DNA of 64,000 nucleotides from Polaromonas sp. JS666 (GTDB taxonomy: Bacteria > Pseudomonadota > Gammaproteobacteria > Burkholderiales > Burkholderiaceae_C): the NCBI RefSeq assembly GCF_000013865.1, contig NC_007948.1, positions 4,579,001 through 4,643,000 of the forward strand, given 5' to 3'. Shown one piece after another: positions 17,657 to 63,956 of the stretch; position 1 is the first letter of the stretch; every line of letters begins with the position of its first letter. The notes beneath the pieces are model-generated. The model made no database searches, was not told where the DNA came from, and worked only from the letters and a program-made list of their open reading frames with translations. Both the position numbers and the translations under genes were made by a program.

Positions 17657-17674
17657 CCTTCGTGTACGAATTAA

Positions 17675-39917: not shown

Positions 39918-39924
39918 GCGGGGT

Positions 39925-40722: not shown

Positions 40723-40750
40723 GGGGAAGTCCTTGGATGTTCTGGGGTGC

Positions 40751-41668
40751 TCAGGCGTCGAAGACCTGGCTGAAGCGGCGCTCCACCCAGCGGTTGGCGC
40801 CGAGGATGATGAGCACGTTGGCCAACAGCAGCAGCATGGCGATGGTGGCTCCCAGCGGCCAGTTCAGCGTGTTGAGGAACTCGTCATAAGCGGCCGTGGC
40901 GACCACCTTGAGCTTGCGCCCGCCCAGCAGGGCCGGCGTGGCGAAGGCCGAAGCCGACAGGGCGAAGACGATGATGCAGCCCGAGAGGATGCCGGGCAGC
41001 AGCTGCGGCAGCATCACGCGCCAGAACACCTTGAGCGGCGGGGCGCCCAGCGAAAGGCCGGCGTTTTCCACCTGCGGATCAAGCTTTTGCAGGTTGGCCC
41101 AGACCGAGATCACCATGAAGGGAATCAGCACGTGGGTCAGCGCGATGGCCACGCCCGTCATGCTGAAAAGCAGGCGTACCGGCTCGCTGGTGATGCCAAG
41201 GGCCATCAGCGTGCTGTTGATCAGCCCGTTGTTGCCGAAGAGGATGGCCCAGCCCAGCGTGCGCACCACCACCGAGATCAGCAAGGGGCCGAGGATGACG
41301 ATGAGGAAGAGCGCGCGCCAGGGGCTTTTCATGCGCGCCAGGATCAGCGTCTCCGGCACGCCCAAGACCATGCACAACAAGGTCACGCCCAGCGCCAGGC
41401 CGCCGGTGCGCAGGAAGATCTCGTGGTAATAACCATCGGAGAACACCTCGAGGTAGTTGCGCCAGGTGTAGTCGGGAAGCACGCCGCGCGTGCCGTCGAA
41501 GGCGTGGAAGGACAGCAGCGCCGTCAACAGCAGCGGCACCAGCAGCAAGCCGATGAACAGCAGCAGCGCGGGCGATGCCAGCAGCCAGGGCGCGGCGCCC
41601 GCGCCTTCGGTGGATTTGCGGCGCGGCACAGCGCCGGCCGCGGACAGGGCGGCAGTCGCTTCAGCCAT
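40751..41668 (-). CDS. ABC transporter permease (PotB type)
   Basis: A 305-residue membrane protein; after a cytoplasmic N terminus the first membrane segment is PALLLFIGLLLVPLLLTALL. VVRTLGWAILFGNNGLINST is typical of PotB-like permeases, and ENAGLSLGAPPLKVFWRVML is the coupling loop. Its start overlaps the ATPase stop by eight bases. Confidence 0.9.
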   Translation of the reverse strand: MAEATAALSAAGAVPRRKSTEGAGAAPWLLASPALLLFIGLLLVPLLLTALLSFHAFDGTRGVLPDYTWRNYLEVFSDGYYHEIFLRTGGLALGVTLLCMVLGVPETLILARMKSPWRALFLIVILGPLLISVVVRTLGWAILFGNNGLINSTLMALGITSEPVRLLFSMTGVAIALTHVLIPFMVISVWANLQKLDPQVENAGLSLGAPPLKVFWRVMLPQLLPGILSGCIIVFALSASAFATPALLGGRKLKVVATAAYDEFLNTLNWPLGATIAMLLLLANVLIILGANRWVERRFSQVFDA

Positions 41669-42728
41669 GAGCCACCTCCTGCAGGGGCAGCACGCGCAGG
41701 TCGTCGTCCGACCAGCTCACGCCGACGGTGCTGCCTTCGGCCGGCGGCACTTCGCCGATGTTGGGCAGGCTGACACTCATCAGGCCCATGGCGGTGTCGA
41801 CCTGCAGCATCCAATGGTTGCCGAGGAAGACGCGCGTCTTGACCTGGCCGGGAAACCCGACACTGGCCGCGCCCAGGCGGAGCTTTTCAGGCCGCACGAA
41901 GACGTGCACGTCTCCATCGAGGCTGCGGCCGCCGTGCGGGATGTGCAGCTGGCGCTCATTCACATTGACGATGGCGCAGCGCTGGTTGTTGGTGACGACG
42001 CGACCGCGCAGCGAATTCGTCTTGCCCAGGAAGGCCGAGGCGAAGGGCGAGCCGGGCTGCTCGTAGGCTTCGAAAGGCATGGCCAGCTGCACGATCTTGC
42101 CGCCGTGCATGACGGCGATGCGGTCGCTCATAGTCATGGCTTCGACCTGGTCGTGCGTGACCAGCAAGGTGGTGATGCCCAGGTGGCGCTGGATGGCGCG
42201 CAGTTCGATGTGCATGTCTTCGCGCAGCTTGGCGTCGAGGTTGGACATGGGCTCGTCGAGCAGCAGCAGTTGCGGGCGGATGGCCAGGGCACGGGCGATG
42301 GCCACGCGCTGGCGCTGGCCGCCGGAGAGCTCACGCGTGAAGCGCTTGCCCAGGCCACCCAGGCGCACCAGGTCCAGCGTCTCGCCGATGCGCTGGGCGC
42401 GCTCGCTGCGGCCCATGCCGCGCATCTCCAGGCCGAAGCCGACGTTGGCTTCGACCGTCATGTGGGGAAACAGCGCATAGCTCTGGAACACCACACCCAT
42501 GCCGCGCTTCTCGGGACGCAGGGCGGTGATGTCCTGGCCTTCGAGCACGATGCTGCCGCGCGTCGGATTCACGAAGCCCGCAATCATCTGCAGGGTGGTC
42601 GTCTTGCCGCAACCGGACGGGCCGAGCAGCGAGATGAACTCGCCCCGCTCGATGTCCAGGTCCAGCGATTCGACCGCGACGAAATCGTCGAAGTGCCGGG
42701 TGAGCTTTTGGAGGGAGAGGAAGGTCAT
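41661..42728 (-). CDS. ABC transporter ATPase (PotA type)
   Basis: A 355-residue ATPase: Walker A GPSGCGKTTTL, signature LSGGQRQRVAIARALA, Walker B LLLLDEPMSNLD, H-loop VTHDQVEAMTMSDR, then a C-terminal TOBE domain (HVFVRPEKLRLGAASVGFPG). It powers the importer with the two permeases downstream and the binding protein at 42821-43864. Confidence 0.94.
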   Translation of the reverse strand: MTFLSLQKLTRHFDDFVAVESLDLDIERGEFISLLGPSGCGKTTTLQMIAGFVNPTRGSIVLEGQDITALRPEKRGMGVVFQSYALFPHMTVEANVGFGLEMRGMGRSERAQRIGETLDLVRLGGLGKRFTRELSGGQRQRVAIARALAIRPQLLLLDEPMSNLDAKLREDMHIELRAIQRHLGITTLLVTHDQVEAMTMSDRIAVMHGGKIVQLAMPFEAYEQPGSPFASAFLGKTNSLRGRVVTNNQRCAIVNVNERQLHIPHGGRSLDGDVHVFVRPEKLRLGAASVGFPGQVKTRVFLGNHWMLQVDTAMGLMSVSLPNIGEVPPAEGSTVGVSWSDDDLRVLPLQEVAHG

Positions 42729-42820
42729 GGTGTTCTGGTGGCTATGGGCTGCCGGACAAGGAAGGCAAGAACGGCATCAATCCCGCGGCGAAGGGCCGCG
42801 GGGGCAAAAAACGTCAGGGC

Positions 42821-43864
42821 TTAACGTTCAATCGTGCGGTTCCAGCGATTCGTCCACTCGCCGCGCTTCTCGTTGACGACGGACCAGTTAGTCGGCAGCA
42901 GCTTGCCGATCTGCGCCGGGCCGTAAGGGACCTTGGCGGCGATGGCGGGGTCAAGCTTGACCTTGCTGTTGACAGGACCAAAGCCCTGGGTCTCGGCCAG
43001 CAGGACCTGCACTTCAGGCGTCATCAGGTATTGCAGCAGGGCCTGGGCCTGCTCGGGCACGTCGCTGTTGACAACCGGGCAGGCCGCGATCAGCAGCGCC
43101 ATCGCGCCTTCCTTGGGATAGACGAATTCGATGGGGAAACCGGTGGCCCTGAAGGACTCGGTGCGCCCGCTGCCCCACACCGCGAGGTTGATGTCGCCGT
43201 TCTGGAAAAGCTCGGTCATCTTGCCAGGCGATGGCTCCCAGGCCAGCACGTTGGGCGCGACTTCCTTGGCCATGGCGTCGAAGCCGGCGTCGATGGCCTT
43301 TTCGCCGCCGCCGCGCATCCTGGCGTACATGATCAGCGTCTGCAGGCCGTAGGTGTTGGAGATCGGCGGGATGGCCAGCTTCTGCTTGAACTTCTTGTCC
43401 GTGAGGATTTGCCATGAATCGGGCTTGGGCAAGCCGGCCTTCTTGAAGGCTTCGGTGTTGTAGGCCAGGCCCGTGGCGACGGCGCCGATAGCCATGGAGC
43501 GGTCGTCGATGCGGGCCAAGGGGTAGATATCCTTGTAGATAGGCGCATCCTTGACCTTGTCGCAGAAACCGAACTGCACGGCCTGCTGCATTGGGCCGTC
43601 ATCCAACAGCACGAGGTCAAGCTCCTGCTTGTCTTTCTGCGCCTGCAGCTTGGCCAGGGTGTCGGTGGAGTTGCCCGCGACATAGACGATCTTGACCTTG
43701 CGGGCCGCCTCAAAGGCCGGGATGATTTTTTCCTTGAACGCCTTTTCGGTGGAGCCGCCGTAGGCGCCGACGTAGAGGGTAGGGACGGATTGCGCGTGGA
43801 CGATGCCCGCACAAGCCAGGGCGACGGCCGTGGCAAGCGATGCTCTCAGGAATTTTGCTTTCAT
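42821..43864 (-). CDS. ABC transporter substrate-binding protein (PotD-like)
   Basis: About 347 residues with a clear signal peptide (FLRASLATAVALACAGIVHA). PTLYVGAYGGSTEKAFKEKI begins the mature domain and is typical of the putrescine/spermidine/opine-like binding group. It is first in the run that continues through the importer and the oxidase genes to RidA. The start at 43864 is taken because the extension upstream is not signal-like. The LysR gene at 44068 is divergent. Confidence 0.92.
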   Translation of the reverse strand: MKAKFLRASLATAVALACAGIVHAQSVPTLYVGAYGGSTEKAFKEKIIPAFEAARKVKIVYVAGNSTDTLAKLQAQKDKQELDLVLLDDGPMQQAVQFGFCDKVKDAPIYKDIYPLARIDDRSMAIGAVATGLAYNTEAFKKAGLPKPDSWQILTDKKFKQKLAIPPISNTYGLQTLIMYARMRGGGEKAIDAGFDAMAKEVAPNVLAWEPSPGKMTELFQNGDINLAVWGSGRTESFRATGFPIEFVYPKEGAMALLIAACPVVNSDVPEQAQALLQYLMTPEVQVLLAETQGFGPVNSKVKLDPAIAAKVPYGPAQIGKLLPTNWSVVNEKRGEWTNRWNRTIER

Positions 43865-43920
43865 CGGGGTTTCTCCATAACGGTGCATCCGGCCCACTCT
43901 GGGGCGCATCACGCACTAAT

Positions 43921-47092: not shown

Positions 47093-47818
47093 CTAGCGCA
47101 CATTCGGCTGTTTCACATGGAATCTAAAGTGGTTCAGCGCACAAACAGCGAGCGAGTCAATCGAGTCCACTACCGGCAATTCGAGCGCCTCTTGGCTGAG
47201 AGATGCGTGAGCGATGGGGAGCTCTGTGCATCCGAGAATCACTGCTGTAGCGCCACGGTCGTATAGCACTCGCACTGAATCTGCGAGTGCAGTGCCAGCC
47301 TCCCTCAATCGGTTCTGCTTTACCGCCTGGATCGGACGCACACATAACTGGAGCACATCGTCCTCCGTGTACGGAAGCACGGTGTAGCCCGCGTTCGTCA
47401 GCTTATCTTTGTAGAGACCCGAGTTGACTGTGGCCGGAGTGCCAAGCAGTCCAATGCGGCCGCCATCGATTCCTCTTGCATGAAGGTTTTCGACGACGGA
47501 AGAGACGATATGAATCAATGGCATCTTCACGCTCATTTGCAGATCTGGGTACCAGTAGTGAGCGGTGTTGCATGGAATGACGGCGCAACTGCACCCGCTG
47601 GACTCCAGGAACTGAAGGTTTCGGCGCATCGCAGGCATCGGGCTCAGTCCACGCCCGAGAGCAAATTCCGAGCGGTCGGGAATTTTGGGGTCGTTGATCA
47701 AGAGCACCGGAAGGTGCTCTTGATCACTCTGAACATCTGTGAGCAACGCCAGTCGATACGCAAAGTAAGCGCCTGCAGCGGGTCCCATCCCGCCAAGTAC
47801 ACCGAGCATCGGTGCCAT
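47093..47818 (-). CDS. Aspartate/glutamate racemase family protein
   Basis: About 241 residues from MAPMLGVLGGMGPAAGAYFA. The two catalytic cysteines are in AVIPCNTAHYWYPD and AVILGCTELPIAHA, as in cofactor-independent Asp/Glu racemases. It would convert D- and L-aspartate or a similar acid. It ends the lyase-Bug-racemase operon. A TTG start overlapping the Bug stop (47857) and a GTG at 47845 are alternatives. The racemase beside an ArgH-like lyase suggests handling of an amino-acid product of that lyase. Confidence 0.87.
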   Translation of the reverse strand: MAPMLGVLGGMGPAAGAYFAYRLALLTDVQSDQEHLPVLLINDPKIPDRSEFALGRGLSPMPAMRRNLQFLESSGCSCAVIPCNTAHYWYPDLQMSVKMPLIHIVSSVVENLHARGIDGGRIGLLGTPATVNSGLYKDKLTNAGYTVLPYTEDDVLQLCVRPIQAVKQNRLREAGTALADSVRVLYDRGATAVILGCTELPIAHASLSQEALELPVVDSIDSLAVCALNHFRFHVKQPNVR

Positions 47819-47853
47819 GCCCGCTTGATTGATTGCCTTATTCACCTTTCTGC

Positions 47854-48825
47854 TCAATCAAGGGTGATATTTGCCTTCTTGATCACTTCGCTCCATCGTT
47901 GCGTTTCGAAGCGCACAAGTGCGAAATAGTCAGCACTAGTTCCGGGCAGTGGCAATGCACCTTGCGCCGCCAGTTGCTCGGCGGTCGACTTTTCCTTCGT
48001 GATCTTGTTGATTTCCATAGAGAGCTTGTCGATGATCGCCTTCGGTGTACCCGCTGGGGCCAGCACGCCAGACCAGGAGTCCACCACAAAGTCGGGAACG
48101 CCAGCCTCTGCCATCGTCGGAACGTTTGGCAGCGAGGGGGATCGTTGCGCACTAGTCATTGCAAGCGCACGCAGCTTTCCGCTCTGGATATGCGGGAGGA
48201 CGGTCGGCAGGTTCACAAACATCAAGTCAATCTGGCCCGCCAGCAGGTCGTTATTAGCAGGACCTGCACCTTTGTACGGCACATGGTCGATGTCAGTGTT
48301 TGTCTTGAATTTAAACAATTCGCCGATCAGGTGATTGACGCCGCCGGTTCCCGAAGAACCCATGAAGAGCTTTTTGCCTCCCGATCTGGAATAGGCGATC
48401 AGTTCCTGGACAGTTTTTGCAGGCACCTTGTTCGCGACGACAAGTACATTGGGTAGGGCTGCAAACAGGGCCACTTGCTTGAATGCCTTGTTTGCGTCAT
48501 AGGGTAGCTTCTTGTATAGCAGCGAATGAAATGATTGGTGGCCCGATGACGCAAGGAGGAGGGTGTATCCGTCGGGCGGGGCCTTGGCTACAACGTCCGC
48601 CCCCATCGTTCCTCCTGCCCCCGCTTTATTTTCGACAATGACTTGCTGACCTAGTTTCTCGGAAAGGCGTTGCGCGAGAACCCTTCCGATCAGGTCTACA
48701 CTGCCACCGGGCGCAAAAGGGACGATCAACCGGATCGGCTTCTCCGGGTACGTGGCAGCGAATGCGTTGGTAGCAACGCAGACAGCGGCGATGGTCGCGA
48801 TCAGAGTTCTAACAAGGAACTTCAT
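47854..48825 (-). CDS. Bug/TctC-family periplasmic binding protein
   Basis: A 323-residue tripartite tricarboxylate transporter-type receptor with signal peptide (TLIATIAAVCVATNAFAATY). YPEKPIRLIVPFAPGGSVDL, VIVENKAGAGGTMGADVVAK and LFMGSSGTGGVNHL are the diagnostic motifs. Bug proteins bind di- and tricarboxylates, amino acids or similar acids. No TctA or TctB membrane gene is in the window, as for most Bug proteins of Burkholderiales. It lies between the lyase and racemase genes, so its ligand is probably their substrate. Confidence 0.94.
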   Translation of the reverse strand: MKFLVRTLIATIAAVCVATNAFAATYPEKPIRLIVPFAPGGSVDLIGRVLAQRLSEKLGQQVIVENKAGAGGTMGADVVAKAPPDGYTLLLASSGHQSFHSLLYKKLPYDANKAFKQVALFAALPNVLVVANKVPAKTVQELIAYSRSGGKKLFMGSSGTGGVNHLIGELFKFKTNTDIDHVPYKGAGPANNDLLAGQIDLMFVNLPTVLPHIQSGKLRALAMTSAQRSPSLPNVPTMAEAGVPDFVVDSWSGVLAPAGTPKAIIDKLSMEINKITKEKSTAEQLAAQGALPLPGTSADYFALVRFETQRWSEVIKKANITLD

Positions 48826-50482: not shown

Positions 50483-51361
50483 ATGAACTTCAAGCAGATA
50501 GAAACATTTCGGGCCGTCATGCTTACGGGATCAATGACCGTAGCGGCGCAGCAACTTCATACCTCTCAGCCGAACGTCAGCCGCGGCATCGGCAAACTCG
50601 AGGCGGAGATCGGCTTCGAGCTCTTTGATCGCCTCGCAGGGCGCCTGGTGGCAACCAAAGGCGGGGAGGCACTCTTCAAGGAAGTGGAGCGCGCGTTCGT
50701 TGGACTGGACAGTCTCACCGAATCAGCGCGCGCTATTCGGGAGTTGGGGGTGGGAACCCTCCGCGTTGCCGCAGCTGCCTCGATCTCTATGAGTGTCCTT
50801 CCTCTGGCTATTCGCATGTTCAGCGAAAAATATCCATTGATCCGGATCGTTGTGGACACCAGCGAGTCATCCATCGTTGCTAACTGGATAGCCACTCAGC
50901 ATTGCGACATTGGGTTCGTGTCCTATATTTCCGACAAGCCAGGTGTCGTGGCATCAGTGATCCACACCGAGAATGCAGTTTGCGTCATGCCATCCCGTCA
51001 CCCGCTTGCAAGGAAAAGGCGTCTTGTACCGCAAGACCTGAATGGTGAGCGGTTCATATCGCTCCCGAGCGGAAGCTCCTCTCGATGTGCGGTCGATGCT
51101 GCGTTTCCCGAGGAAGGTCGAATCATGGTGCTCGAAACCACTTACGCAGCGACAATATGCAGGATGGTCAGCGAGGGACTCGGCTTGAGTCTTTTGAATC
51201 CTATCGTTAGTCGCACAATGAAGCTTCCCGGGATCGTCGCCATCCCCTTCAAGCCGGACGTGCCTTTCAAGAGCTACATGCTCAGGGCCCAGCTGGCACC
51301 GCGTGACACACACGTAAACTTCTTTGTTTCCTGCATGCGGACAGCCTTTAAGTCATTTTGA
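50483..51361 (+). CDS. LysR-family transcriptional regulator
   Basis: A 292-residue LysR protein beginning MNFKQIETFRAVMLTGSMTV, with SQPNVSRGIGKLEAEIGFEL as recognition region and MVSEGLGLSLLNPIVS in the ligand domain. It is divergent from the ArgH-like lyase operon and probably controls it. Confidence 0.88.
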   Translation: MNFKQIETFRAVMLTGSMTVAAQQLHTSQPNVSRGIGKLEAEIGFELFDRLAGRLVATKGGEALFKEVERAFVGLDSLTESARAIRELGVGTLRVAAAASISMSVLPLAIRMFSEKYPLIRIVVDTSESSIVANWIATQHCDIGFVSYISDKPGVVASVIHTENAVCVMPSRHPLARKRRLVPQDLNGERFISLPSGSSSRCAVDAAFPEEGRIMVLETTYAATICRMVSEGLGLSLLNPIVSRTMKLPGIVAIPFKPDVPFKSYMLRAQLAPRDTHVNFFVSCMRTAFKSF

Positions 51362-51569: not shown

Positions 51570-52688
51570 CTACTGACGTATTTTCCCGCTGCCACTGATG
51601 ATGGACAGCTCCACGAATTTCGCGCCGGAGCGTATTCCCGGCTTGAAGCTCACCAGGTAGCCGCCGAGGTCATAGCTATCCATGCTATCCAGCGCTGTCA
51701 CAAACCCTGAGCGATTTGGATTTTTTCCTTGTCGACGCACGGCTTCCACGATGACCTTGGCTGCGATATAGCCTTCCATCATGGTATAGCTCACCGGCAC
51801 CTCTAGACTCTGAGTTTTAGCGATCGTATCGCTGAACTCCTTGGCCAGGCGCACTGAGATCTTGTACGGATTGGGCACAACTTGCGCAATTGCCACACCC
51901 CGCAATTGTTCCTCGCTCAGTCGCTTTGATAACTGCTCGATGTCGGCCCCTGAGTGCGAAAGCAACTGTGATGCACCACCAGCCGCCCGGTACTGCTCAA
52001 TAAAGGCGGCTGCGGCCGCCCCGCTTGCGACCATGATAATGGCCTGCGGTGTGGTTTTAACGAACACCTCAACAGCCGGCGTAACGCGAGCCGTCCCAGC
52101 TGGATAGGATGCTTTGGAAATGACATTGCCGCGAGTCTTCTTGACTGCTTCGTCGGTGGCAGCAAGCAGCGAGGCAACACCCGGACCGTCTTCGTAAAAA
52201 AGGCCAATTCGGTTGATACCGACAGTGGCCAGGTGTTCGGTAATTTTGTGGATCTCGTCACGTAAGCTGGCCCGCACGTTGTACAGCAACGGGGTCTCGG
52301 GACGCATTTCTGTCGTGCGGTAGCCCACGACGGCGATGGAGTTTGCTTCGAGCACGCCTGAACTCACCAAATCTGTGATGTTGCGGTTGCCAAAAAATCC
52401 AGCCAAAACCAATGGCTTTTCTTCAGTCAGCAACTGCTTGGTGGCACTAATAGTATCCTCCGCCCGCCCACCATCATCTTTGCGAACCAGGGCGAACGTG
52501 TGGCCGTTGATGCCGCCGGCCTTGTTGACATTGTTAAACATCAGCTGCATACCAACCGCATATGCCCTGCCTTGATTGGCATCCAAGCCTGACATCGGAC
52601 CGACCTGCCCGACAACAACTTCAACAGCATGCGCTAGTGGCATCCCTAGCAGGGAAAGAATGAGAACTAAGCTTGGATTCATTTTCAT
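51570..52688 (-). CDS. ABC transporter substrate-binding protein, family 6
   Basis: A 372-residue protein with signal peptide (LVLILSLLGMPLAHAVEVVV), VGQVGPMSGLDANQGRAYAV at the mature start and ELSIISGSGKIRQ at the end. It is a close relative of 34194-35339 and intact over the full LivJ-like fold. No Liv permease lies nearby. It follows a Bug protein gene by 48 bases on the same strand, so two different types of receptor are encoded in tandem. Confidence 0.9.
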   Translation of the reverse strand: MKMNPSLVLILSLLGMPLAHAVEVVVGQVGPMSGLDANQGRAYAVGMQLMFNNVNKAGGINGHTFALVRKDDGGRAEDTISATKQLLTEEKPLVLAGFFGNRNITDLVSSGVLEANSIAVVGYRTTEMRPETPLLYNVRASLRDEIHKITEHLATVGINRIGLFYEDGPGVASLLAATDEAVKKTRGNVISKASYPAGTARVTPAVEVFVKTTPQAIIMVASGAAAAAFIEQYRAAGGASQLLSHSGADIEQLSKRLSEEQLRGVAIAQVVPNPYKISVRLAKEFSDTIAKTQSLEVPVSYTMMEGYIAAKVIVEAVRRQGKNPNRSGFVTALDSMDSYDLGGYLVSFKPGIRSGAKFVELSIISGSGKIRQ

Positions 52689-52736: not shown

Positions 52737-53702
52737 TCAATCCACAGTTGCACCAGAACTGCGCACCAGTTTTGCCCACTTTTCAGTATCTGATTGAATA
52801 CGCTTAGTGAGTTCTTCCGGCGTCGAGACAAGTGGGGTAGCGCCCTGCAGGGTAAGTTTCTCAACCATTGCTTTATCCCGTGCGATACGCGAAATTTCAT
52901 TCGAAAGCTTGACCAGAATTTCCTTTGGTAGGTCCTTTGGCCCCAGGACACCAGACCACACATTTACGGCGTACCCCGGCACTCCTGCTTCAATCATTGT
53001 CGGTACGTTGGGCAGTACCGGTGACCTTGTCGTGCTCGTTACAGCTAGCGGACGCAGTTTTCCAGCTTTAATCCCCTGCACCGATCCTGGAAGATTGTCG
53101 AACATCAGCTGAATCTGATTTCCCAACAAATCAGTCATCGCGGGTCCGCTACCCTTGTAAGGTACGTGCGCAAAAGTAGCTCCCGTCATCGATTTGAACA
53201 ACTCACCCGAAAGATGGTTGGTAGTTCCATTGCCGGCCGAACCCATGAACAGGGTGGTGGGATGTCTCTTTGAATAGTCGATTAATTCTTTAACCGACTT
53301 AACCGGAACCGTTGGATTGACCACCAATACGTTTGGAACAGTCGCGAACGTTGCGATGGGGGTGAAATCCTTCTTTGAATCGTATGGCAAGTTCTTATAT
53401 AGCGACGCATTGATTGCCAGGCCGATTCCTCCGAACAACAACGTGTATCCATCCGCCGCCGACTTAGCCACGAAATCTGTACCGAGAGTGCCGCCTGCAC
53501 CTGCACGATTGTCAACAATCACCTGTTGTCCAAGCGATTCGGACAGACGGCTGGCCAGCAGGCGACCAAGATTGTCGGTGGTTCCCCCTGGAGGAAACGG
53601 CACGATCAAACGGATCGGCTTCGTTGGATAGCTTTCCGCGTAAGCGGCTGTGGCGGCCAATGCAATGAATAGGCTTGTAATTAACCTAGAAATATTCGTC
53701 AT
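52737..53702 (-). CDS. Bug/TctC-family periplasmic binding protein
   Basis: A 321-residue receptor with signal peptide (LITSLFIALAATAAYAESYP), YPTKPIRLIVPFPPGGTTDN, VIVDNRAGAGGTLGTDFVAK and LFMGSAGNGTTNHLSGELFK. It is the second Bug protein of the window and, like the first, near an ArgH-like lyase gene. TctA and TctB are not present. The 105 bases between it and the dual ATPase gene contain no gene. Confidence 0.94.
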   Translation of the reverse strand: MTNISRLITSLFIALAATAAYAESYPTKPIRLIVPFPPGGTTDNLGRLLASRLSESLGQQVIVDNRAGAGGTLGTDFVAKSAADGYTLLFGGIGLAINASLYKNLPYDSKKDFTPIATFATVPNVLVVNPTVPVKSVKELIDYSKRHPTTLFMGSAGNGTTNHLSGELFKSMTGATFAHVPYKGSGPAMTDLLGNQIQLMFDNLPGSVQGIKAGKLRPLAVTSTTRSPVLPNVPTMIEAGVPGYAVNVWSGVLGPKDLPKEILVKLSNEISRIARDKAMVEKLTLQGATPLVSTPEELTKRIQSDTEKWAKLVRSSGATVD

Positions 53703-53807: not shown

Positions 53808-55667
53808 TCAAGCCGCCATCAACGCGTCGTGGACCACAAAGTGACCGGGTGCTATCTCGTCAAGCCTTAGCTCAGGCGGCGCATAGTGCAGGCCATGTAT
53901 GGGACTTGGAATTTCACCGGCCATCATGTGGCGCAGGTTGCGGCGTTGCGGGTCTGCCACCGGAACGGCGGACAGCAACTTGCGGGTGTAGGGATGGCGA
54001 GGGTTTTCAAAGATCTGGCGACGGGTGCCAATCTCCACGATGCGCCCAAGATACATAACAGCCACCCGGTGGCTCACGCGCTCAACCACAGCCAGGTCGT
54101 GTGAGATAAAAAGAAAGGCAATTCCCAGTTCGCGCTGCAGATCCTGCATGAGGTTGATGACCTGAGCTTGAATGGATACGTCAAGTGCGGAAACCGACTC
54201 ATCGGCCACAATCAGGCGTGGCGAAAGGGCCAACGCTCGCGCAATACAGATGCGTTGTCGCTGCCCGCCCGAGAACTCGTGTGGGTAGCGGTGCGCATGC
54301 TGCGGTAGCAAGCCAACCTTGCACAACAGCTCGCCAGCCCGGCGGCGCGCCTCCTCACCGTATGCAATGTTGTGTACCTTAAGCGGTTCAAGCAGTGAGT
54401 CTTCGATGGTGCGGCGCGGATCGAGCGATGCGTAGGGGTCCTGAAACACCATCTGTACCTCTCGGCGCAGGCCCTTGAGCCTGCTGCCGGTCATGGTGCC
54501 GATGGACTGCCCGTTGAACTCGATCTGCCCGCCTTGTGTGTGCAGCAGGCGCGCTACCGCACGGGCTGTGGTCGATTTTCCGCAGCCTGATTCACCGACC
54601 AATGCAAGTGTTTCTCCAGCGAAGAGATCAAAGCTCACATCCTCTACCGCATGGACACGGCGCTGCACGCGGCCGAGAATGCCGCCGCGCAAGTCGTAAC
54701 GGGTCACCAGATTACGCACACGCAGCAAGGGTGGGAGGTTGTAGTCTGGTGTGGGTGCATCCAGCGGCGATCCTGACGGAGCAACCGCCTGAACCACCTC
54801 GCCCGTGCCAGGCTCGACCAAGGGGAACTTCGCCGGGAAATCGGTACCCTGCATAGCTCCTAGCCTGGGCACCGCGGCCAGCAGACTTCGCGTGTATGGA
54901 TGCTGGGGCCGCGCAAATATGCGCCCGACCGAACCGCGTTCGACTGTCTCGCCGTTGCGCATGACCATCACCTCGTCGGCAATCTCAGCCACGACACCCA
55001 TGTCGTGAGTGATGAAAACCACGCCCATGTCCAGGTCGTCCTGCAGCCCGCGAATGATCTGCAGGATTTGCGACTGCACGGTCACGTCCAGCGCCGTGGT
55101 AGGTTCGTCGGCAATGAGCAAAGTGGGTTCACAGGCCAATGCCATCGCGATCATGATTCGCTGGCGCATGCCGCCGGAAAGCTGGTGCGGGTAGCGCCCC
55201 ATCACCTGCTTCGCATCAGGGATTCTCACGAGATCCAGCATGCGCAGCGCGCGTGCAAGTGTGGCCGCACGGTCACCGGGTTGGTGCAGGCGGATGGCCT
55301 CCAGAATTTGGTCGCCGACCTTGAAAACCGGGTTCAAGGAGGTCATGGGCTCCTGGAAGATCATGGCCATGTCGGCGCCCCGCAGGCGACGGAGTTGAGA
55401 TTCGGGCGCTTCCATAAGATCGACCACCCCATGATGGCGGGTGCGCAGCTGCATTTGCCCGGAGGCGATGCGGCCGCCGCCCAGTTCTACAAGACGCATG
55501 ATGGCCAGCGAAGTCACCGACTTGCCCGAGCCCGACTCGCCAACGATGGCCAGCGTCTTTCCACGCGCCACCTCGAAAGAGACATCGCGCACCGCCATGG
55601 GGGCGCCGACGTCGCCGCAGAAGGCCACGCTCAGGTTCTGTACGCGGGCGACGAGGTCAGCGTTCAT
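53808..55667 (-). CDS. Dual-domain ABC transporter ATPase (DppD-DppF/GsiA type)
   Basis: A 619-residue protein with two ATPase domains. In the first, Walker A is [13 protein letters not shown], the signature [16 protein letters not shown] and Walker [13 protein letters not shown]. In the second, Walker A is [13 protein letters not shown], the signature [16 protein letters not shown] and Walker [13 protein letters not shown]. The second Walker B has Ser where Pro is usual. Oligopeptide-type C-terminal regions follow each domain ([20 protein letters not shown]). It serves the Dpp-like importer with the permeases at 58872-60694 and the receptor at 57214-58779. Its start overlaps the lyase stop (ATGA). 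Confidence 0.93.
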
Positions 55668-57208
55668 ACAGTTTCCACGGCAGCGACAAGCCGGCCGACG
55701 GCCTGGTTCAGTTCGCTCTGAGCCCGTGCCAGGCGGGCGCGCGCCTCCTCCACCCAGCGCTTGTCGGCAACACGCTCGCTCTGCGCATGCGCCAGCAGAC
55801 GGGCGACCTGCAGCGGCGCTACGCTGCCGTCGGTGACCCGGGTTTCGACAAAACGCCTTGGATCAAGCGCATCGCGCACGGCCTCATCGCCGAGCCTGAG
55901 CTCAAGGCCGGCGGTTTCTAACGCAGCCTCATCGAGCAGTGCGCTTGTCAAATCAGCCGGTGCAGTTCCTTGCGCAATGCAGTTGCGCACGACACGCGCC
56001 ACGATGTGATGCACTTGGCGAAACGAAAGGCCGCGCTCGCGTACGATCACATCGGCAAGGTTACTGGCCGTACACCAGCTGCCGCTGAGTGATTCGGCCA
56101 TACGGTCGTCATGCACGATCAGCGTCTCGATTACCCCGGTGAAGAGGTCAAGCATGCCTTCAGTGGTTGCGAGTGCCTCATCGATCAGCGGCAGTTCGCG
56201 CATGGCTTGGTCACCCGTTCCCTCCGCACGGAAGGTGGCCAGCGCGGTGGCCAGCCAGGTTACGGCCGAGCCGGCGGCCTTTTTAATGGTTTCAAGGCCC
56301 GCCGGATTTTTCTTCTGAGGAAAGATGCTGCTTGTGCCGCAATAGCTGTCGTCGCTTTCGACCAAGCCGAACTCTGTGCTGGACCAAAGGTGCAGATCGG
56401 TCGCTAGGTCGTTGAGGTCCGCCATGACAAAGGCCAGAGCACCGATGGCCTCGGCCGCGTAGTAGGCCTCGCGTCCCAGCTTGGAGTTTTCCACCAGCCC
56501 ATCAAAACCCAGCAGCGCGGTGGTGCGCATGCGGTTCAGTGGCCAGGAGGTTCCAGCCAGGCCGACCGCGCCCAGCGGGTTGCGGTTGACGCGGCCATAC
56601 GCCTGGGCCAGCCGCTCGAAGCTGTCGTGCAGCCGCGAGCTGAAGCTCAGCAGGTAATGGCCGAAGACCCAGGGCTGCGCATGTTGAAGGTGGGTGTAAC
56701 CGGGCATGATGGTGCGAGCATGGCGCCGCGCCTGCTGGGCGATGGCGTCCTGCAGGCCGTTGAGCTGGTCCATCACATCGAGCATGCGGTTGCGCTTGTA
56801 AAGCCGCCGGACGGTGGCGCCCTGGTCGATACGGCTACGGCCTGTGTGCATCTGCCCGCCTACGTCCTCGCCGATTGCCGCAAAGAGGTAGGACTCGATC
56901 TGCAGCAGGAAACTTCCCTTGCGAACGTCCGTGGGAAAGTCAGCCGGCTCCATGCGGCGGATCGCAAGCAGCTGCTGAAGGATGGCGCGGCCGGCTGCTG
57001 TTGAGATGATGCCTTCCTCCACCAGCATGGTGGTGTGCGCCATGTCGACTGCGACAAACTCCTGGAACTGCTTCTTCTCGCGCTCCAGGCCTGGCAGGTC
57101 GTGGTATTTGACCAGCCGTGCGGCCGGGGGAGCGCTCAACCGGGCTTCGGTCAGCAGAGTTTCATGAAGGGTAGTGGATGTCATCGGGACTTTGAAAGTT
57201 GGCATCAA
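55664..57208 (-). CDS. Argininosuccinate lyase-like protein within a Dpp-type importer operon
   Basis: Up to 514 residues. [31 protein letters not shown] and [20 protein letters not shown] are the superfamily signatures; Phe replaces Met in the usual SSIMPQKKNP loop. It is coupled by ATGA overlap to the dual ATPase downstream, and its stretch of operon begins right after the receptor gene. That placement is not expected for arginine biosynthesis. It fits a lyase for an imported N-substituted aspartate, as known for ethylenediamine-disuccinate lyase. ATG codons at 57208, 57205 and 57184 are possible starts, with no strong ribosome-binding site. Confidence 0.85.
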
Positions 57209-57213
57209 GTGGG

Positions 57214-58779
57214 TTAGCGGGTGACGGTTGCGTTGTTAAATTCGACGATCTCGTCGCTATAGACGGTCAGACCCTTGACGCCCTTGCGTTGGCCGATGAG
57301 TTGAACCTGGTCAAATAGCGGTATCGTGTTGGGTTCGAGCTCCCAGACGACACGCTGGACGTCGCCGTACGTCGCCATGCGTTTGTCGTAGTTCATCTCG
57401 CCGGCAGCTTTGGCCAGCAGGCCGTCGACCATCGGGTTGGAGTAGCCGGTGAGGTTGGACGGGTCGCCCGTGCTCAGCTTGCGGCGCAGGCGGATATCCG
57501 CATTCGGGATGCCGGTGCCCAGCAGCCACATGTTGGCGCCGTTGCTTCCCTTGCCCGTACCCTTGCCGGGCTCGGCGCGGTACAGCTCCTTCTGGTAGGA
57601 GGCCCACTCCCAGACCTTGAACTCCGTCTTCAGACCGACGGCGTTGAGGTAGCCCTGTACGGCTTCGGCGGCGGCACGATCCTTTGTGTAACGGCCCGAG
57701 GGAGTCCACATGGTCACGACACCGGGGTACCCACCAGGGAATGCGGCCTTCAGCAGGCGGCGCGCCTCGTCCGGGTTGTATTTGTAAGCCGGAAATATGC
57801 GGCGAGCCTGCGTTCCCTCTGGAAAGGGGCTGACGGGAACGCGGCCATAGCCCAGCAGGATCTTGTCGACGATGGCTTGGCGGTCTATGGCCACATTCAC
57901 CGCCTTGCGTACGCGCACGTCGTCAAAGGGGGGCTTGGTGACGTTCAGCTCGAAGAACACCTGAAAGGCACTAGGGGCTTGTTGCAGCACCATTTTGTCG
58001 CTGCCCTTGAAGTCACCGGTGAGTTCCGGCGCAATGTTCGCGGCAACGTCCGCGTTTCCGGTCTTCAGCTCGATCACGCGCGCAGCATTCTCCGGCACGG
58101 GGCGAAACACCAGTCGGTCTGTTTTCCCGGGAGTGCCGAAGTAGTCAGGGTTGCGCACAATCTCGGCGCGCTCATTGGGAATCCAGCTCTTGAATACATA
58201 GGGTCCGGTACCCACGGGGTTGCGGCCATAGGCGCGACCACGCTTTTCGATGGCTGTGGGGCTGCTGATGGACGCCCATTCCTCGGTCAGAATCTCAAGC
58301 AGTGTGGGCGACGGTTCCTTGGCGGCAATGGTCACGACGTACGTGCTCGGGGCCTCTACCGTCTCAATAGCAGCGTAGTAGGACCGGTTCGGCGAACCCA
58401 GTTCGGGACTGCGCAAACGGTCCAGGTTGAACTTGACAGCCGCCGCGTCCAGTGGCGTCCCATCATGGAATTTCACTCCTTTGCGAAGATTGAAAGTCCA
58501 GACCTTCCCGTCAGCAGAGACGTTCCATGACTCCGCAAGGTCAGGAACGATCTTCTTGAAGCCAGGACCGTCCCAGCTCACCAATTTGTTAAAAATATGC
58601 GTGATGACGATTTGCGAGGGGGTGCTACGGCTCACGGCTGGATCGAGTGTGTCGATCTCTGTGCCTTGGACATAGGTCAAGCTGGTCTCGGCTGCAGCAT
58701 GGCCGGCACCGCCGAGCAGCATCAGGGCAAGGCCCGCGGCGGTGAGCGGACGGGTGACGGACGGAAAACTATGGCGCAT
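57214..58779 (-). CDS. ABC transporter substrate-binding protein, family 5
   Basis: About 521 residues with signal peptide (LTAAGLALMLLGGAGHAAAE) and family 5 motifs: EIDTLDPAVSRSTPSQIVIT, AESWNVSADGKVWTFNLRKG and GTGPYVFKSWIPNERAEIVR. It is the receptor of the Dpp-like importer. The ATG at 58779 has GGAG-like bases upstream, and the longer open frame is not protein-like. Ligands of the family include peptides, opines and metal-chelating aminocarboxylates. Confidence 0.92.
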   Translation of the reverse strand: MRHSFPSVTRPLTAAGLALMLLGGAGHAAAETSLTYVQGTEIDTLDPAVSRSTPSQIVITHIFNKLVSWDGPGFKKIVPDLAESWNVSADGKVWTFNLRKGVKFHDGTPLDAAAVKFNLDRLRSPELGSPNRSYYAAIETVEAPSTYVVTIAAKEPSPTLLEILTEEWASISSPTAIEKRGRAYGRNPVGTGPYVFKSWIPNERAEIVRNPDYFGTPGKTDRLVFRPVPENAARVIELKTGNADVAANIAPELTGDFKGSDKMVLQQAPSAFQVFFELNVTKPPFDDVRVRKAVNVAIDRQAIVDKILLGYGRVPVSPFPEGTQARRIFPAYKYNPDEARRLLKAAFPGGYPGVVTMWTPSGRYTKDRAAAEAVQGYLNAVGLKTEFKVWEWASYQKELYRAEPGKGTGKGSNGANMWLLGTGIPNADIRLRRKLSTGDPSNLTGYSNPMVDGLLAKAAGEMNYDKRMATYGDVQRVVWELEPNTIPLFDQVQLIGQRKGVKGLTVYSDEIVEFNNATVTR

Positions 58780-58871
58780 GGAGGGTACTCCGGAGTTTGG
58801 AAGGCAATGACGGATGCAGGATTGGAATCGGATGGAGGTCTTGGAGCGTGGAGGATTAATCTGACGGGGTT

Positions 58872-59804
58872 TCAGCGCCGCGACTGCCGCGATCGCGGAT
58901 CCACGTAGTCCCGCAGCGCGTCGCCGACCAGGTTGAAGCTCAGGATCACGATGAACAGCGCACAACCCGGTGCGAGCAGCACATGCGGGTGACTGGTGAG
59001 ATGGGCCCGGGAGTTGGCGATCATGGCGCCCCACTCAGGGATCGGCGGCGGTGGACCCAGACCGAGGAAGCTCAGTCCGGAGCCAATCAAAATGGCCTCG
59101 GCCAGTGAGGTCGTGGCCTGCACGATGATGAGGGATCCGATATTAGGGATGATGTGGCTCAGGATCAGTCGCAGGTCGCCCACACCTATGGATCGCGATG
59201 CAAGCACGAACTCGCGCGCCTTGAGCGCCCGCACCGGCGCGGCGAAGAAGCGCACATAAATCGGCATCGTGGAGATAGCGATAGCGGCCGTCAGGCTCAT
59301 CACGCTATTGCCGGCAACGGCCACCACCATGATGGCCACCAAAGTGCGAGGAAAGGCGATCATGAAGTCCATGAGCCGCATCAGAGTGCCGGTGGCTGCG
59401 TTGGCGTAAAAGCCGCAAAGCGCACCGAGAGAAATGCCTACGGCCATACCCATTGCAACGCTGCCGAAGGCAACTGCTAGCGTGATGCGCGCCCCCCAGA
59501 GCACACGTCCTAGCAAGTCACGCCCAAGCTCATCTGTGCCAAGCCAGAAGGTATTGCCCGGTGCGAGCAGCGCTCGGTCGAGGTTCACCTGCGTGACGGA
59601 TATCCAATCGAACATCCAGGGCGCAATAGCGGCAGCCGTGAAAATTGCCAACAGAATGGCTAGTGAGACCGAGGCAATCCAGCGGCGCGCACTGAGCAGG
59701 TAACGCAGGAAGCCGCCGGCCGGACGCCGAGTCGTTGCAGCAGTGGTGACAGGCACGTTGGGCTGCACTTCAAGCGTAGGTGATGCGAGGGTCAAGGAAT
59801 CCAT
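58872..59804 (-). CDS. ABC transporter permease (DppC type)
   Basis: A 310-residue membrane protein; after a cytoplasmic N terminus the first segment is ISLAILLAIFTAAAIAPWMF. LGTDELGRDLLGRVLWGARI and LSFLGLGPPPPIPEWGAMIA are diagnostic for the DppC/OppC group. It overlaps the 3' end of the DppB-type gene by 35 bases. Confidence 0.93.
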   Translation of the reverse strand: MDSLTLASPTLEVQPNVPVTTAATTRRPAGGFLRYLLSARRWIASVSLAILLAIFTAAAIAPWMFDWISVTQVNLDRALLAPGNTFWLGTDELGRDLLGRVLWGARITLAVAFGSVAMGMAVGISLGALCGFYANAATGTLMRLMDFMIAFPRTLVAIMVVAVAGNSVMSLTAAIAISTMPIYVRFFAAPVRALKAREFVLASRSIGVGDLRLILSHIIPNIGSLIIVQATTSLAEAILIGSGLSFLGLGPPPPIPEWGAMIANSRAHLTSHPHVLLAPGCALFIVILSFNLVGDALRDYVDPRSRQSRR

Positions 59805-60694
59805 ATGCCAGGTCGACGATGAGGTTGATGAGAACGACGAGTGCGGCGAAGACCAGGATGGTTCCCTGCACGACGTAGATGTCGCGGACCATGATCGCGT
59901 CGATCATGTAACGACCCATACCAGGCCAGGCGAATACAGTCTCGACGATGACCGCCCCCCCCAAGCAGGCGGCCAAAGTCCATGCCGAACGAGGTCACCA
60001 GGGGTATTGATGCATTGGACAGGGCATGACGTAACACGACGCGTGGCCGTGCCACCCCCTTGGCATAAGCGGTGCGGATGTAATCCTCCCCCAGCACGTC
60101 TAGCATGCTGGAGCGCGCCAACCGAGAGAAAGTAGCTACATACGGTAAACCAAGCGTGATGGCTGGCATCACCAGTTGCTGCCAGCTACCACGGCCGGTG
60201 GGAGGCAACCAGCCCAGCGTGGATGCAAAGACAAGCATCAGCAGAAGGCCCAGGAAGAACCCCGGCATCGAGATGCCGACCACCGCAAGTGCGGTCAAAG
60301 CGCTGTCGAGCAGACCGCGCGGCTTGAGTGCAGCCGCGATGCCCAGTGGTACACCAAGTACTACGGCCAGCAGCATCCCGGCAGTGGCCAGCTCAAGGGT
60401 CGCTGGAAGCGTGCGTGCGATGCTTTCGGTCACCGGCGCATAGGTCTGAAAGGAGTCCCCGAGATCGCCTTGCAAGACCACACGCTGGAGGTAGATGAAG
60501 TACTGCTGGTGCAGCGGCTTGTCCAGGCCATAGTTGCGGCGGATTTGCTCGATGTCGGCCTCGGCTGCATCGGGGCCGGCGGCCATGCGCGCCAGGTCAC
60601 CGGGTATGGCATGCATGACGAGGAAGACGGCCAGTGAGATGCCGGCGAGCATGGGCACGAACAGCAACAGGCGTCTGATCACATAATTGAGCAT
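59770..60694 (-). pseudogene. ABC transporter permease (DppB type), frameshifted in a homopolymer
   Basis: The frame from MLNYVIRRLLLFVPMLAGIS runs normally through AYAKGVARPRVVLRHALSNA to FGMDFGRLLGG. It then leaves the correct frame at a run of eight C on the plus strand (59955-59962). The rest of the protein, VIVETVFAWPGMGRYMIDAI through AYGFLDPRITYA, is intact in the next frame. Removing one base from the run restores a normal DppB of about 308 residues. It is therefore a recent lesion, a phase-variable switch or a sequencing error. The rest of the importer looks intact. Confidence 0.85.
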
Positions 60695-60930: not shown

Positions 60931-61836
60931 ATGGAACTCAATCCCCGACAACTCGAAGCTTTCCGCAATGTCATGATGACCGGCAGCATGACCATTGCCG
61001 CGGAGCTTCTGAAAGTCAGCCAGCCTGCAGTGAGTCGGCTGATAAAGGATTTGGAAAAGACACTTGCCATACGGCTCTTTCGCCGTGAAGGCAATCGCCT
61101 CATCCCAGGCGCGGAGGCACAGCGGCTCTTTCTGGAAGTGGATCGTTTCTATCAAGGTATGGAGCAGGTCCAGCGAGTCGCGCAGGATCTGAAATCTGTG
61201 CGCATCGGCACACTGCGTATCGCCTCCATGCACACGCTGGGGTTGAGCCTCCTCAGTGAGGGAGTTCGGCGATTTTCACTTGCCCGACCTGGCGTGGTCA
61301 TTTCGCTGGACGTGCGTAATTCGCTTGGAATCCTTGAGCTCACGGCCGCCCATCAGATTGACATCGGATTCGTTCAGATGATGGGTACCGAATACCCAGG
61401 GGTCGACGTATTCCCGCTTCCGAGCGTCCCTGCAGTCTGCGTGCTTCCACGCGGCCATGCGCTGGCGCGCAAGAAGGCAGTACAAATCACTGACCTGCAG
61501 GGTGAATCGCTTATCTCGTTGAGCCGCAACAGCCCGATGCGTATGCGACTGGAAATGGCGCTTGAGGCCGCTGGGGTGACATGCCGACGTTCGGTGGACA
61601 CAACGCTCGCGCACCTGGCCTGCAGCATGGTCGCTGGTGGGCTGGGTCTCACGGTGGTCGACCCATTTACCGCTGGCCGCATGCGCGCTCCCTCGGTTGT
61701 CTACCGTCCCCTTTTGCCGACCGTTCCGTGTGAGTTCTCCATGGTGCTGCCCGCACATCAGCCGCGCTCCAAGGTGGTGGACGATTTCATCCGGGTGATG
61801 AAGGAACTGTTTGACGCTGGCTTTACCTCGGCCTGA
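60931..61836 (+). CDS. LysR-family transcriptional regulator
   Basis: About 301 residues; MELNPRQLEAFRNVMMTGSM and SQPAVSRLIKDLEKTLAIRL form the helix-turn-helix, and MVAGGLGLTVVDPFTAGRMR lies in the ligand domain. GGAGCAACC precedes the ATG at 60931, which decides the start. It is divergent from the Dpp-type importer and lyase and probably controls them. Confidence 0.9.
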   Translation: MELNPRQLEAFRNVMMTGSMTIAAELLKVSQPAVSRLIKDLEKTLAIRLFRREGNRLIPGAEAQRLFLEVDRFYQGMEQVQRVAQDLKSVRIGTLRIASMHTLGLSLLSEGVRRFSLARPGVVISLDVRNSLGILELTAAHQIDIGFVQMMGTEYPGVDVFPLPSVPAVCVLPRGHALARKKAVQITDLQGESLISLSRNSPMRMRLEMALEAAGVTCRRSVDTTLAHLACSMVAGGLGLTVVDPFTAGRMRAPSVVYRPLLPTVPCEFSMVLPAHQPRSKVVDDFIRVMKELFDAGFTSA

Positions 61837-62175: not shown

Positions 62176-62538
62176 TCAACCCAACGAGGCAATGACGGTC
62201 ACCTCAACCAAGAGGTTTGCCGCTGCGAGTCGCGCCTCTACCGTAGTTCTCGCCGGTGCGGTGCGGGAGACAATCCACGATTCCCAGACTGCATTCATCG
62301 CGGCGAAGTCGTCTATGTTCTTCAAATAGATGGTCGCTGAAAGGATCTGCTCGCGGTTACTGCCCGCCTCGGTTAACAGCGCGTCGACACGCGACAAGGT
62401 TTCATGCATCTGAGCGGTGATGTCAGCGTTGGCATTGGCGCTGCTAGTGGCGGTCTGACCGCATAGGTAGACCAAGCCGCCATGCTGCACGATCTTGCTC
62501 ATGCGTGCGTTGGTGTGCTTGCGTTCGATAGTGCTCAT
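62176..62538 (-). CDS. RidA family protein
   Basis: A 120-residue RidA-type protein with QHGGLVYLCGQTATSSANAN near the N terminus and the active-site arginine in TAPARTTVEARLAAANLLVE. It should hydrolyse enamine/imine intermediates released by amino-acid oxidases. Its start overlaps the stop of the alpha-subunit gene (ATGA), a direct link to the oxidase. The internal ATG at residue 13 (MSKIVQ) is an alternative start that is closer to most family members. Confidence 0.9.
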   Translation of the reverse strand: MSTIERKHTNARMSKIVQHGGLVYLCGQTATSSANANADITAQMHETLSRVDALLTEAGSNREQILSATIYLKNIDDFAAMNAVWESWIVSRTAPARTTVEARLAAANLLVEVTVIASLG

Positions 62539-63956
62539 GTTGTTTCCATGGGTTCAGAGTTTTCGATGGTTGCCGTGTCGGCCAGTGCAGCAATAGATGC
62601 CAGCGGCACCGGCTTCAGCGGCGACCGAATGTGATAGGCGCCGACCTCGCTTGGCGGCCTACCCAACTCCGTTGAGAGAATTTGGGTCACTGTCAGGCCA
62701 CATACTCGGCCTTGGCACGGTCCCATACCACAGCGGCTGAAAAATTTGGTCTGATTTGGTCCCTGGCAGCCCAGGCGAGCCATCTCGCGGACGCGGCCAG
62801 CCGTGACTTCCTCACAGCGGCAAACAACAGTCTCATCGGTAGGATCGGAAAGCCATTCGGGGGGGCGATACAGCGCGTCCAGGAAGGGCCGGATGCGTAG
62901 CTGGCGTTTCAGCGTGCCGCGTGCGGACGCGGCGCGCTGTTCGCACTCCGTCACGTCTAGCCGACCCAAGGCCTGCGCAGCACCCAGCGCCGCGAGTGTG
63001 CCATTGGGTTCTGCTGCCTGTGCGCCGGCAATCGCCGCACCGTCACCGGCAACGCGAAAGCCCGCGAGCGAAGTTTCACCCCATGCATTGACTTGTGGGC
63101 GCCAGGCCAGTTGAACAAGGTCCCAATCATGGTCAACCCTTAGCAGGCGGCTGAGTTGGGTGTTGGGAACCACCCCGTGATGCAATAACACGACATCCGC
63201 GTGCAGAAGATGGTCAATACGATCGGCCTTGAACGCCAGCGCCTGAACTCGCTCGCCGCCCTCGACGCGCAAGGACGTCGCCGCAGCGAACATCGGAACG
63301 CCTGCTCGACGAAGACGCCACAGCATGCGCAGGCCTTTTGCCAAGTAGGCGTGTGCTCCCAGCGCAGCCGGCAGGTGGCGCAGGGCACGCCAGCGATTGG
63401 TTGACGGCGAAGTTTCGACGATGCCTGCCAGCGAGACTCCTGCATCCAGCAATTGACAGGCTACCAGCAGCAGCAGAGGCCCGCTCCCGGCAAGCACGAC
63501 GCGGCCGGAGGGAACGGCACTGGCACTCTTCAAAGCGATCTGAGCAGCGCCGGCGTTCAGTACACCGGGAAGCGTCCAGCCGGGGATCGGGGAGGCGCGC
63601 TCCATGGCACCGGTGGCGGCGATCAGCTGCGGCGCACGCACCTGAAATGACTGACCATCCTGTTGAGCGGTTACGGTAAGGTCGCGCGCAACGTCCCACA
63701 CCATCGCACCAAAGCGCAGCTCAACACCCGAGCGGCCGAGCCGAGCCGCCAACCCTTCCCCGTGCCGGTAATCGGGCCCGAGCAAGGCGGCTACGGATGG
63801 AGGTACTGCGGTGATGTTGCGGTAAATCTGCCCGCCCGGGCGCAACTGCTCGTCCAGCAGCAGTGTCTTCATTCCGAGCGATGCCGCCGTTAGCGCGGCC
63901 GACATGCCAGCTGGACCAGCACCGATGATCACGAGGTCGTGTGTCGACGCGCTCAT
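62535..63956 (-). CDS. FAD/NAD(P)-binding oxidoreductase alpha subunit with C-terminal [2Fe-2S] domain
   Basis: A 473-residue protein; DLVIIGAGPAGMSAALTAAS is the dinucleotide fold, DEQLRPGGQIYRNITAVPPS the FAD contact and GWTLPGVLNAGAAQIALKSA the family mark. The C-terminal cluster domain is VCRCEEVTAGRVREMARLGC with FFSRCGMGPCQGRVCG. It is the homologue of 36994-38409 and 1-513. The start overlaps the stop of the partial gene upstream (ATGA) and the stop overlaps RidA, so three genes are coupled. Confidence 0.92.
   Translation of the reverse strand: MSASTHDLVIIGAGPAGMSAALTAASLGMKTLLLDEQLRPGGQIYRNITAVPPSVAALLGPDYRHGEGLAARLGRSGVELRFGAMVWDVARDLTVTAQQDGQSFQVRAPQLIAATGAMERASPIPGWTLPGVLNAGAAQIALKSASAVPSGRVVLAGSGPLLLLVACQLLDAGVSLAGIVETSPSTNRWRALRHLPAALGAHAYLAKGLRMLWRLRRAGVPMFAAATSLRVEGGERVQALAFKADRIDHLLHADVVLLHHGVVPNTQLSRLLRVDHDWDLVQLAWRPQVNAWGETSLAGFRVAGDGAAIAGAQAAEPNGTLAALGAAQALGRLDVTECEQRAASARGTLKRQLRIRPFLDALYRPPEWLSDPTDETVVCRCEEVTAGRVREMARLGCQGPNQTKFFSRCGMGPCQGRVCGLTVTQILSTELGRPPSEVGAYHIRSPLKPVPLASIAALADTATIENSEPMETT

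Follow-up and report, generated by a model that had tools for sequence, protein, structure and literature searches.

Uptake-coupled lyases that release fumarate are a kind of system that is already known. The lyase 2SL, a fumarate-releasing member of the argininosuccinate lyase (ArgH) superfamily, has been described as encoded together with an ATP-binding cassette (ABC) importer in yxe loci (PMC9706529). In Chelativorans, an operon for the uptake and breakdown of ethylenediaminetetraacetate (EDTA) joins breakdown enzymes to an importer with a NikA/DppA/OppA-like receptor, EppA (PMC7312458). Ethylenediamine-N,N'-disuccinate (EDDS) lyase, known from Chelativorans sp. BNC1 (PDB 6g3d-6g3i, 6rx8), forms toxin A, an N-substituted aspartate that occurs naturally (PMC10792612). 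The locus described here lies in a stretch of 64,000 nucleotides from Polaromonas sp. JS666 (NC_007948.1, positions 4,579,001 to 4,643,000), referred to below as the window, in whose numbering coordinates are given. Its minus strand carries, from 60694 to 53808, genes for two permeases (B and C), a family-5 receptor, an ArgH-like lyase (lyase 1) and a fused double ATPase. The operon resembles that for EDTA in combining an importer with breakdown enzymes, and differs from it in employing a lyase, where the EDTA operon has a monooxygenase. What is new is a variant of the known system with two lyase clades, L1 and L2, that pair with one another; no described lyase-importer operon of this sort was found in the open-licence literature when searched by title and start of abstract.

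We favour, with about even confidence, the reading that this is an uptake-and-cleave locus, whose GsiABCD-like importer brings in an N-substituted aspartate (an aminopolycarboxylate) that lyase 1 splits by beta-elimination into fumarate and a probably carboxylated amine. After import through the GsiABCD-like ABC importer, elimination by the conserved loop Ser of lyase 1 would yield fumarate, and the amine, probably carboxylated, would be released and passed on. A LysR regulator encoded divergently from the operon (60931..61836, plus strand) would respond to the imported compound. From the sequence we infer both fumarate as the product of lyase 1 and a carboxylate on the amine part.

The operon consists of permease B, of GsiC/NikB type (59792..60694), permease C (58872..59804), the receptor (57214..58779), lyase 1 (55664..57184) and the GsiA-like ATPase (53808..55667), all on the minus strand. 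The gaps in transcript order are -13, 92, 29 and -4 bases, so the original prediction of consecutive, partly overlapping genes with the lyase stop inside the ATPase start holds for all five genes in their stated order, the overlap being 4 bases. The ATG of lyase 1 at 57184 is that of the database form, and its open frame extends to 57208. Scanning named genomes yielded 37 loci; L044, which had no lyase match, was left out of all counts, so that 36 remain. The complete set of LysR regulator, both permeases, receptor, lyase and ATPase occurs in the same order in 14 of these 36 relative loci, which places the arrangement beyond chance; a relative of the LysR regulator is present in 25, with both types of importer discussed below. 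The original prediction overlooked that the frame of permease B is broken at a run of eight G (59955-59962), the window's only G or C run of at least eight. The permease-model match ends at about this run (residue 276), and the remainder continues in another frame and is conserved against eight aligned relatives in a DNA alignment. Relatives have intact copies of permease B, and the break may stem either from a fault of the assembly or from a slip that occurred recently.

Lyase 1 scores 343 bits on the NCBIfam argH model TIGR00838 and owes its public name of argininosuccinate lyase to exceeding the cut-off of 279.5; the canonical ArgH of the genome, encoded elsewhere (L002), scores 597 bits. 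Among solved structures, its best sequence matches are entries for EDDS lyase (258 bits), followed by ArgH (195 bits), and it shares 36% identity with EDDS lyase, 33% with lyase 2, a further superfamily member in the window, and 31% with the genome's own ArgH. EDDS lyase is also the top fold match by E-value for the AlphaFold monomer of lyase 1 (mean predicted local distance difference test score 89), but with a root-mean-square deviation of 8.0, against 2.2 to 3.6 for ArgH entries among the matches listed; the monomer is unsuited to pocket geometry, as the active site needs three chains.

In a tree of 72 rows, ArgH (8), the EDDS family (13), L2 (17) and L1 (33) form four separate groups with bootstrap values of 98 to 100 (clade supports of 99/99 for ArgH, 98/100 for L1 and 100/99 for the EDDS family with L1 outside). 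One row, L009_lyX, is a distant superfamily member (25% identity to lyase 1, branch length 10) and was excluded from later counts. A second tree of 50 rows, with L1 thinned to 14 of its 33 rows and the long rows L039, P0238 and P0239 excluded, sets L1, the EDDS family and ArgH each apart at 100, while L2 is a single clade in just 50% of bootstraps. The best 50-row tree pairs L1 with the EDDS family (95/98), and neither constrained alternative is rejected by the approximately unbiased (AU) test (L1 with L2, p 0.245; L1 with ArgH, p 0.314). The clades were sampled by means of three seeded searches, which contributed 9, 11 and 12 of 120 listed proteins, and the gaps between clades may partly reflect this sampling. 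Judged by its sequence, lyase 1 is a member of its own ArgH-superfamily clade (L1), being neither a biosynthetic ArgH nor an EDDS lyase.

With biosynthetic ArgH, lyase 1 shares the superfamily, the catalytic loop and the His of PGYTHLQ. The arginine-side motifs are gone: alignment columns show that the window lyase lacks the N-terminal Ser and Asp, a pair which we take to be arginine-side residues, the Asp after PQKKNP and a Tyr. A role for lyase 1 as the biosynthetic ArgH is rejected by the tree, by these residues and by the canonical second copy in the genome; the original prediction was to fail if phylogeny placed the lyase firmly within biosynthetic ArgH, and the trees hold the two apart. 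A paralogue of ArgH acting on imported argininosuccinate, or on something closely analogous, to give arginine would agree with the score on the argH model, with the common fold and with the unrejected tree that joins L1 to ArgH, and is nevertheless improbable in view of the separate clade, the missing residues and the ArgH that the genome already possesses.

The substrate-near residues of EDDS lyase have been described as R112, N113, Q159, N288, D290 and Y320 (PMC12363623). The window lyase retains R112 and N288 only, which are kept in all 33 L1 rows, and has Ile for N113, His for Q159, Ala for D290 and, behind a three-residue deletion, Gly for Y320. The position of N113 is Ile (29) or Leu (4) throughout L1 and Asn in all 38 ArgH, EDDS-family and L2 rows. 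That of Q159 is His in 29 L1 rows and Cys in 4, the same four Alcaligenaceae loci (L035-L038) bearing both the Leu at the fingerprint Asn and the Cys at the site His. That of D290, which is Asp in the eight ArgH rows too, is Ala in 16, Ser in 8, Thr and Tyr in 3 each, Val in 2 and Asp in one, while Y320 is Gly in 33/33; the positions of Q159 and Y320 vary within the sampled EDDS family also. The catalytic machinery is intact, with Ser280, Ser281, Lys286 and Thr158 conserved in all L1 rows and both Ser, Pro, Lys and Asn of the GSSxxPxKxN loop present in 33/33 (the window lyase has Thr for the first Gly). In the 514-residue frame of lyase 1, the superfamily site positions are Ser294, Lys299, Asn301, Thr172, His173 and Arg126; the marks of L1 are Gly98-Ser99-Phe100-Leu101 and Arg337, the latter invariant in L1 only, and the fingerprint is GRSRID.

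Since Asp290 is replaced in 32/33 rows and Tyr320 by Gly in all of them, these amine-side contacts of EDDS lyase are lost in L1. For the EDDS lyase variant engineered as Q159C/D290E/Y320A, the gain with a secondary amine exceeded three orders of magnitude (PMC12363623), and because this variant was changed at these positions the opened L1 pocket may fit a bulky or tertiary amine.

The original prediction had proposed a route related to EDDS lyase. That enzyme does remain the best sequence and fold match, whereas the separate clade and the four of six contact positions that differ in the window lyase do not agree with it. A genuine EDDS or iminodisuccinate route of the kind found in Chelativorans BNC1 or Agrobacterium BY6 draws on the match to EDDS lyase in the PDB and by fold and on the best tree pairing; it is distinctly unlikely, given the altered contacts, a joining branch that the data do not demand (the AU values above) and the lack near the locus of an MmgE/PrpD gene (PF03972, the family of iminodisuccinate epimerase). 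In the 31 of 37 genomes that were searched, none of the places listed for such genes was closer to L1 than 20 kb, although the epimerase could be encoded apart; the two MmgE/PrpD genes of the Polaromonas genome are at 0.59 and 1.31 Mb of contig C1, and the locus is at 4.63 Mb. A query with EDDS lyase at 1e-120 matched 0/297 genomes of the order of Bosea, which shows nothing.

The importer had been called Dpp-type. It is a family-5 importer, but by model scores and fold it is closer to the glutathione-type GsiABCD than to Dpp, without passing any Gsi cut-off: the ATPase scores 934 bits on GsiA (cut-off 1077), the receptor 226 on GsiB (594), permease B, from its broken gene, 245 on GsiC (463) and permease C 222 on GsiD (484), the last also scoring 233 bits on Opp2C, again under the cut-off. 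It differs from the GsiABCD glutathione importer in these four scores and in the lyase gene between those of the receptor and the ATPase. Fold comparison places the receptor nearest to the glutathione-binding YliB/GsiB; EppA is not among the 50 rows listed in that comparison, which excludes nothing. An Arg/Lys stretch is invariant in 17 receptor sequences, and the receptor families concerned take acids and amino acids. Because of this stretch and these families, together with the lost amine-side Asp and Tyr and the invariant Arg of L1, the ligand is probably a polycarboxylate.

The importer beside L1 is not always of this type. Among the 36 loci, 18 have a family-5 ABC importer, 14 a Bug/TctC receptor directly after the lyase and four neither. 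Fourteen of the 18 ABC-type loci are complete; L029 is rearranged, L031 has an inserted relative of lyase 2, and L030 and L032 start at contig ends. The type switches at least two times on the lyase tree (33 labelled rows; two changes are forced by starred branches). As the ABC and Bug/TctC types exchange around one lyase, the lyase is tied to import as such. The exchange strengthens the link between lyase and import that the original prediction had drawn. In a plasmid collection, L1 was also found in Cupriavidus metallidurans (two records, that of CH34 being of the Bug type), in Roseibium sp. Sym1 (ABC type) and in Microvirga lotononidis, where neither type is directly beside the lyase. Locus L136 has two family-5-receptor-like genes (6496-8121 and 9035-10660) of 541 residues each, with identical first 25 residues and about 2.5 kb apart, which represent a tandem duplication or an assembly repeat.

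Lyase 2, of clade L2 (48855..50354, minus strand), is encoded 5 kb from lyase 1 and retains the fingerprint Asn. It is accompanied by a divergent LysR regulator (50483..51361, plus strand), a Bug/TctC receptor (47854..48825, minus strand) and an Asp/Glu-type racemase (47093..47857, minus strand) that passes the model of the cysteate racemase CuyB (212 bits, cut-off 190). A related racemase follows L2 in L124, under the CuyB cut-off. L2 was matched at 1e-110 in 17 of the 36 L1 genomes. Among 399 Burkholderiales genomes, L1 was found in two (the window's own genome and G155, which by its coordinates is the genome, of Achromobacter, that contains L035), and four had L2 (1e-110). With the L1 carriers removed, the L2 background is 2/397 (Fisher p 1e-18 against 17/36), a comparison in which the background is of Burkholderiales only and the 36 carriers span other orders too. 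Restricted to Burkholderiales carriers, L2 is present in 9/16 (Fisher 7e-13), and by genus, with genera taken from record titles, in 4/10 L1 genera against 1/163 (Fisher 3e-5). The two L2-bearing background genomes are of one genus, with a receptor nearly that of Cupriavidus; this genus may be an L1 carrier genus. In seven of the 17 genomes (G425, G446, G447, G448, G449, G450 and G451), L1 and L2 lie within 15 kb on one contig.

The transport genes beside L2 vary as well. Some loci have Bug receptors next to it. Six (L123, L126-L130) have a gene for a small ABC ATPase directly after L2; L123, L126 and L127 have, by size and start of the open frames, a receptor, two short permeases, L2 and an ATPase, and the receptor of L126 resembles amino acid receptors (121 bits, under its cut-off). 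In a receptor tree, all 14 Bug proteins adjoining L1 form one clade with four adjoining L2, that of lyase 2 in the window included (98/97). Conversely, the Bug/TctC receptor encoded 105 bases downstream of the lyase 1 operon ATPase (52737..53702, minus strand) groups among five receptors that accompany L2 elsewhere (100/99). Receptors are thus exchanged between the two modules, an argument for ligands that are related. Lyase 2 with its racemase may process a related compound, or else attack the C-N bond that comes next.

A further proposal, put forward tentatively and with well under even confidence, is that L1 and L2 are two undescribed partnered lineages which, with exchangeable importers and opine-oxidase-type flavoenzymes, dismantle, one bond after another, a succinylated natural compound resembling a metallophore. 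The GRSRID fingerprint of L1 and its pocket, opened by Gly in place of Tyr and, in Alcaligenaceae, by Cys in place of His, recall the variant of EDDS lyase that was engineered towards secondary amines, and L1 would take an N-substituted aspartate that is bulky or tertiary, or the corresponding thioether.

Sulphur also enters into the main rival explanation, that the importer takes up an S-succinyl thiol, for instance S-(2-succino)cysteine (2SC) or succinated glutathione, from which lyase 1 would release fumarate and a thiol by cleaving the C-S bond. Within the superfamily, C-S cleavage has been described for 2SL, acting on N-acetyl-2SC (PMC9706529), and for FlcB/FlcC (PMC13411527). The nearness of the receptor to glutathione-binding YliB/GsiB would suit such a ligand, as would the pocket, in which the Asn to Ile/Leu exchange and a Phe for M283 (32 of 33 L1 rows) make one side more hydrophobic. 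The racemase of lyase 2 has a cysteate enzyme as its model, and in Advenella a putative argininosuccinate lyase, perhaps of another clade, is 6.4-fold up on mercaptosuccinate compared with succinate (PMC5373536). 2SL itself is likened to lyase 1 by description, and differs from it in its preference for N-acetylated 2SC and in its placement in cd01334 by its authors, which speaks against the thiol; it also acts with an acetylase and a deacetylase (PMC9706529). On the Roseibium plasmid, the L1 operon (L145) is followed, at 15313-17719, by a gene of the cystathionine-gamma-synthase family and an amino acid dehydrogenase gene. This neighbour favours the thiol, and was seen beside L1 at this one locus only among the loci searched. 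On balance an S-succinyl thiol is unlikely.

Several observations weigh against an imported aminopolycarboxylate cleaved by lyase 1. Besides the score on the argH model, the cystathionine-synthase-type neighbour in Roseibium points to sulphur, and the Ile or Leu that replaces the fingerprint Asn in 33/33 L1 rows could reflect a different leaving atom. Position 290 is still Asp in a single L1 row, that of L024, and this locus and L033, L034 and L039 have neither importer type beside L1. No L2 match at 1e-110 was obtained in 19 of the 36 L1 genomes, the broken permease frame could leave the importer non-functional in this strain, and most of the nearby oxidase modules, which are described next, may be plain, unrelated neighbours.

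Next to the lyase 1 operon, beyond its regulator, the minus strand carries the end of an oxidase operon with genes for a flavoprotein of HcnB/opine-oxidase type (62535..63956) and a RidA-type protein (62176..62538); past the flavoprotein, outside the window, a gene for a DAO-type oxidase and another importer of family 5 are encoded. At 1e-70, seven HcnB-type flavoproteins are encoded in the genome, and a span of 95 kb that includes the window (G000:C1:4578128-4672581) accounts for five of them. Five modules of importer, DAO and HcnB-type oxidase, mostly with a RidA-type gene, flank both lyase modules, and the importer genes near the five HcnB genes differ in kind. In the alphaproteobacterial genome G446 (L129), the ATPases of the L1 operon have behind them, on their own strand, an HcnB gene and a flavoprotein gene that, judged by its start, is of DAO type. 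L121 and L131 have an HcnB gene across LysR from L2, the latter with a DAO-type gene also. HcnB was matched (1e-70) in 20 of the 36 L1 genomes and not in the other 16, the window's own genome being counted apart. The presence of oxidase modules by the lyases suggests the breakdown of compounds with several C-N bonds.

Elsewhere in the window, two adjoining open frames (4587-6097) match one DAO-type oxidase, the gene of which looks split. A Pot-type ABC importer is encoded with a ThiO/DAO-type oxidase at 38766-43912, and a related set (54-69% identity) is found at about 82.8-87.8 kb in window numbering. The Bug/TctC receptor after the lyase 1 operon is followed by a periplasmic binding protein of Peripla_BP_6 (LivK) type (51570..52688, minus strand).

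L1 proteins are named argininosuccinate lyase wherever a source names them (120 clusters listed). On the reading favoured here, they would be catabolic enzymes for an imported compound and not, as their name has it, makers of arginine. If the substrate is an aminopolycarboxylate, the locus would show the recycling by bacteria of natural chelators of the aspergillomarasmine/EDDS kind, and lyase 1 would offer a natural example of the kind of pocket that engineering has aimed for.

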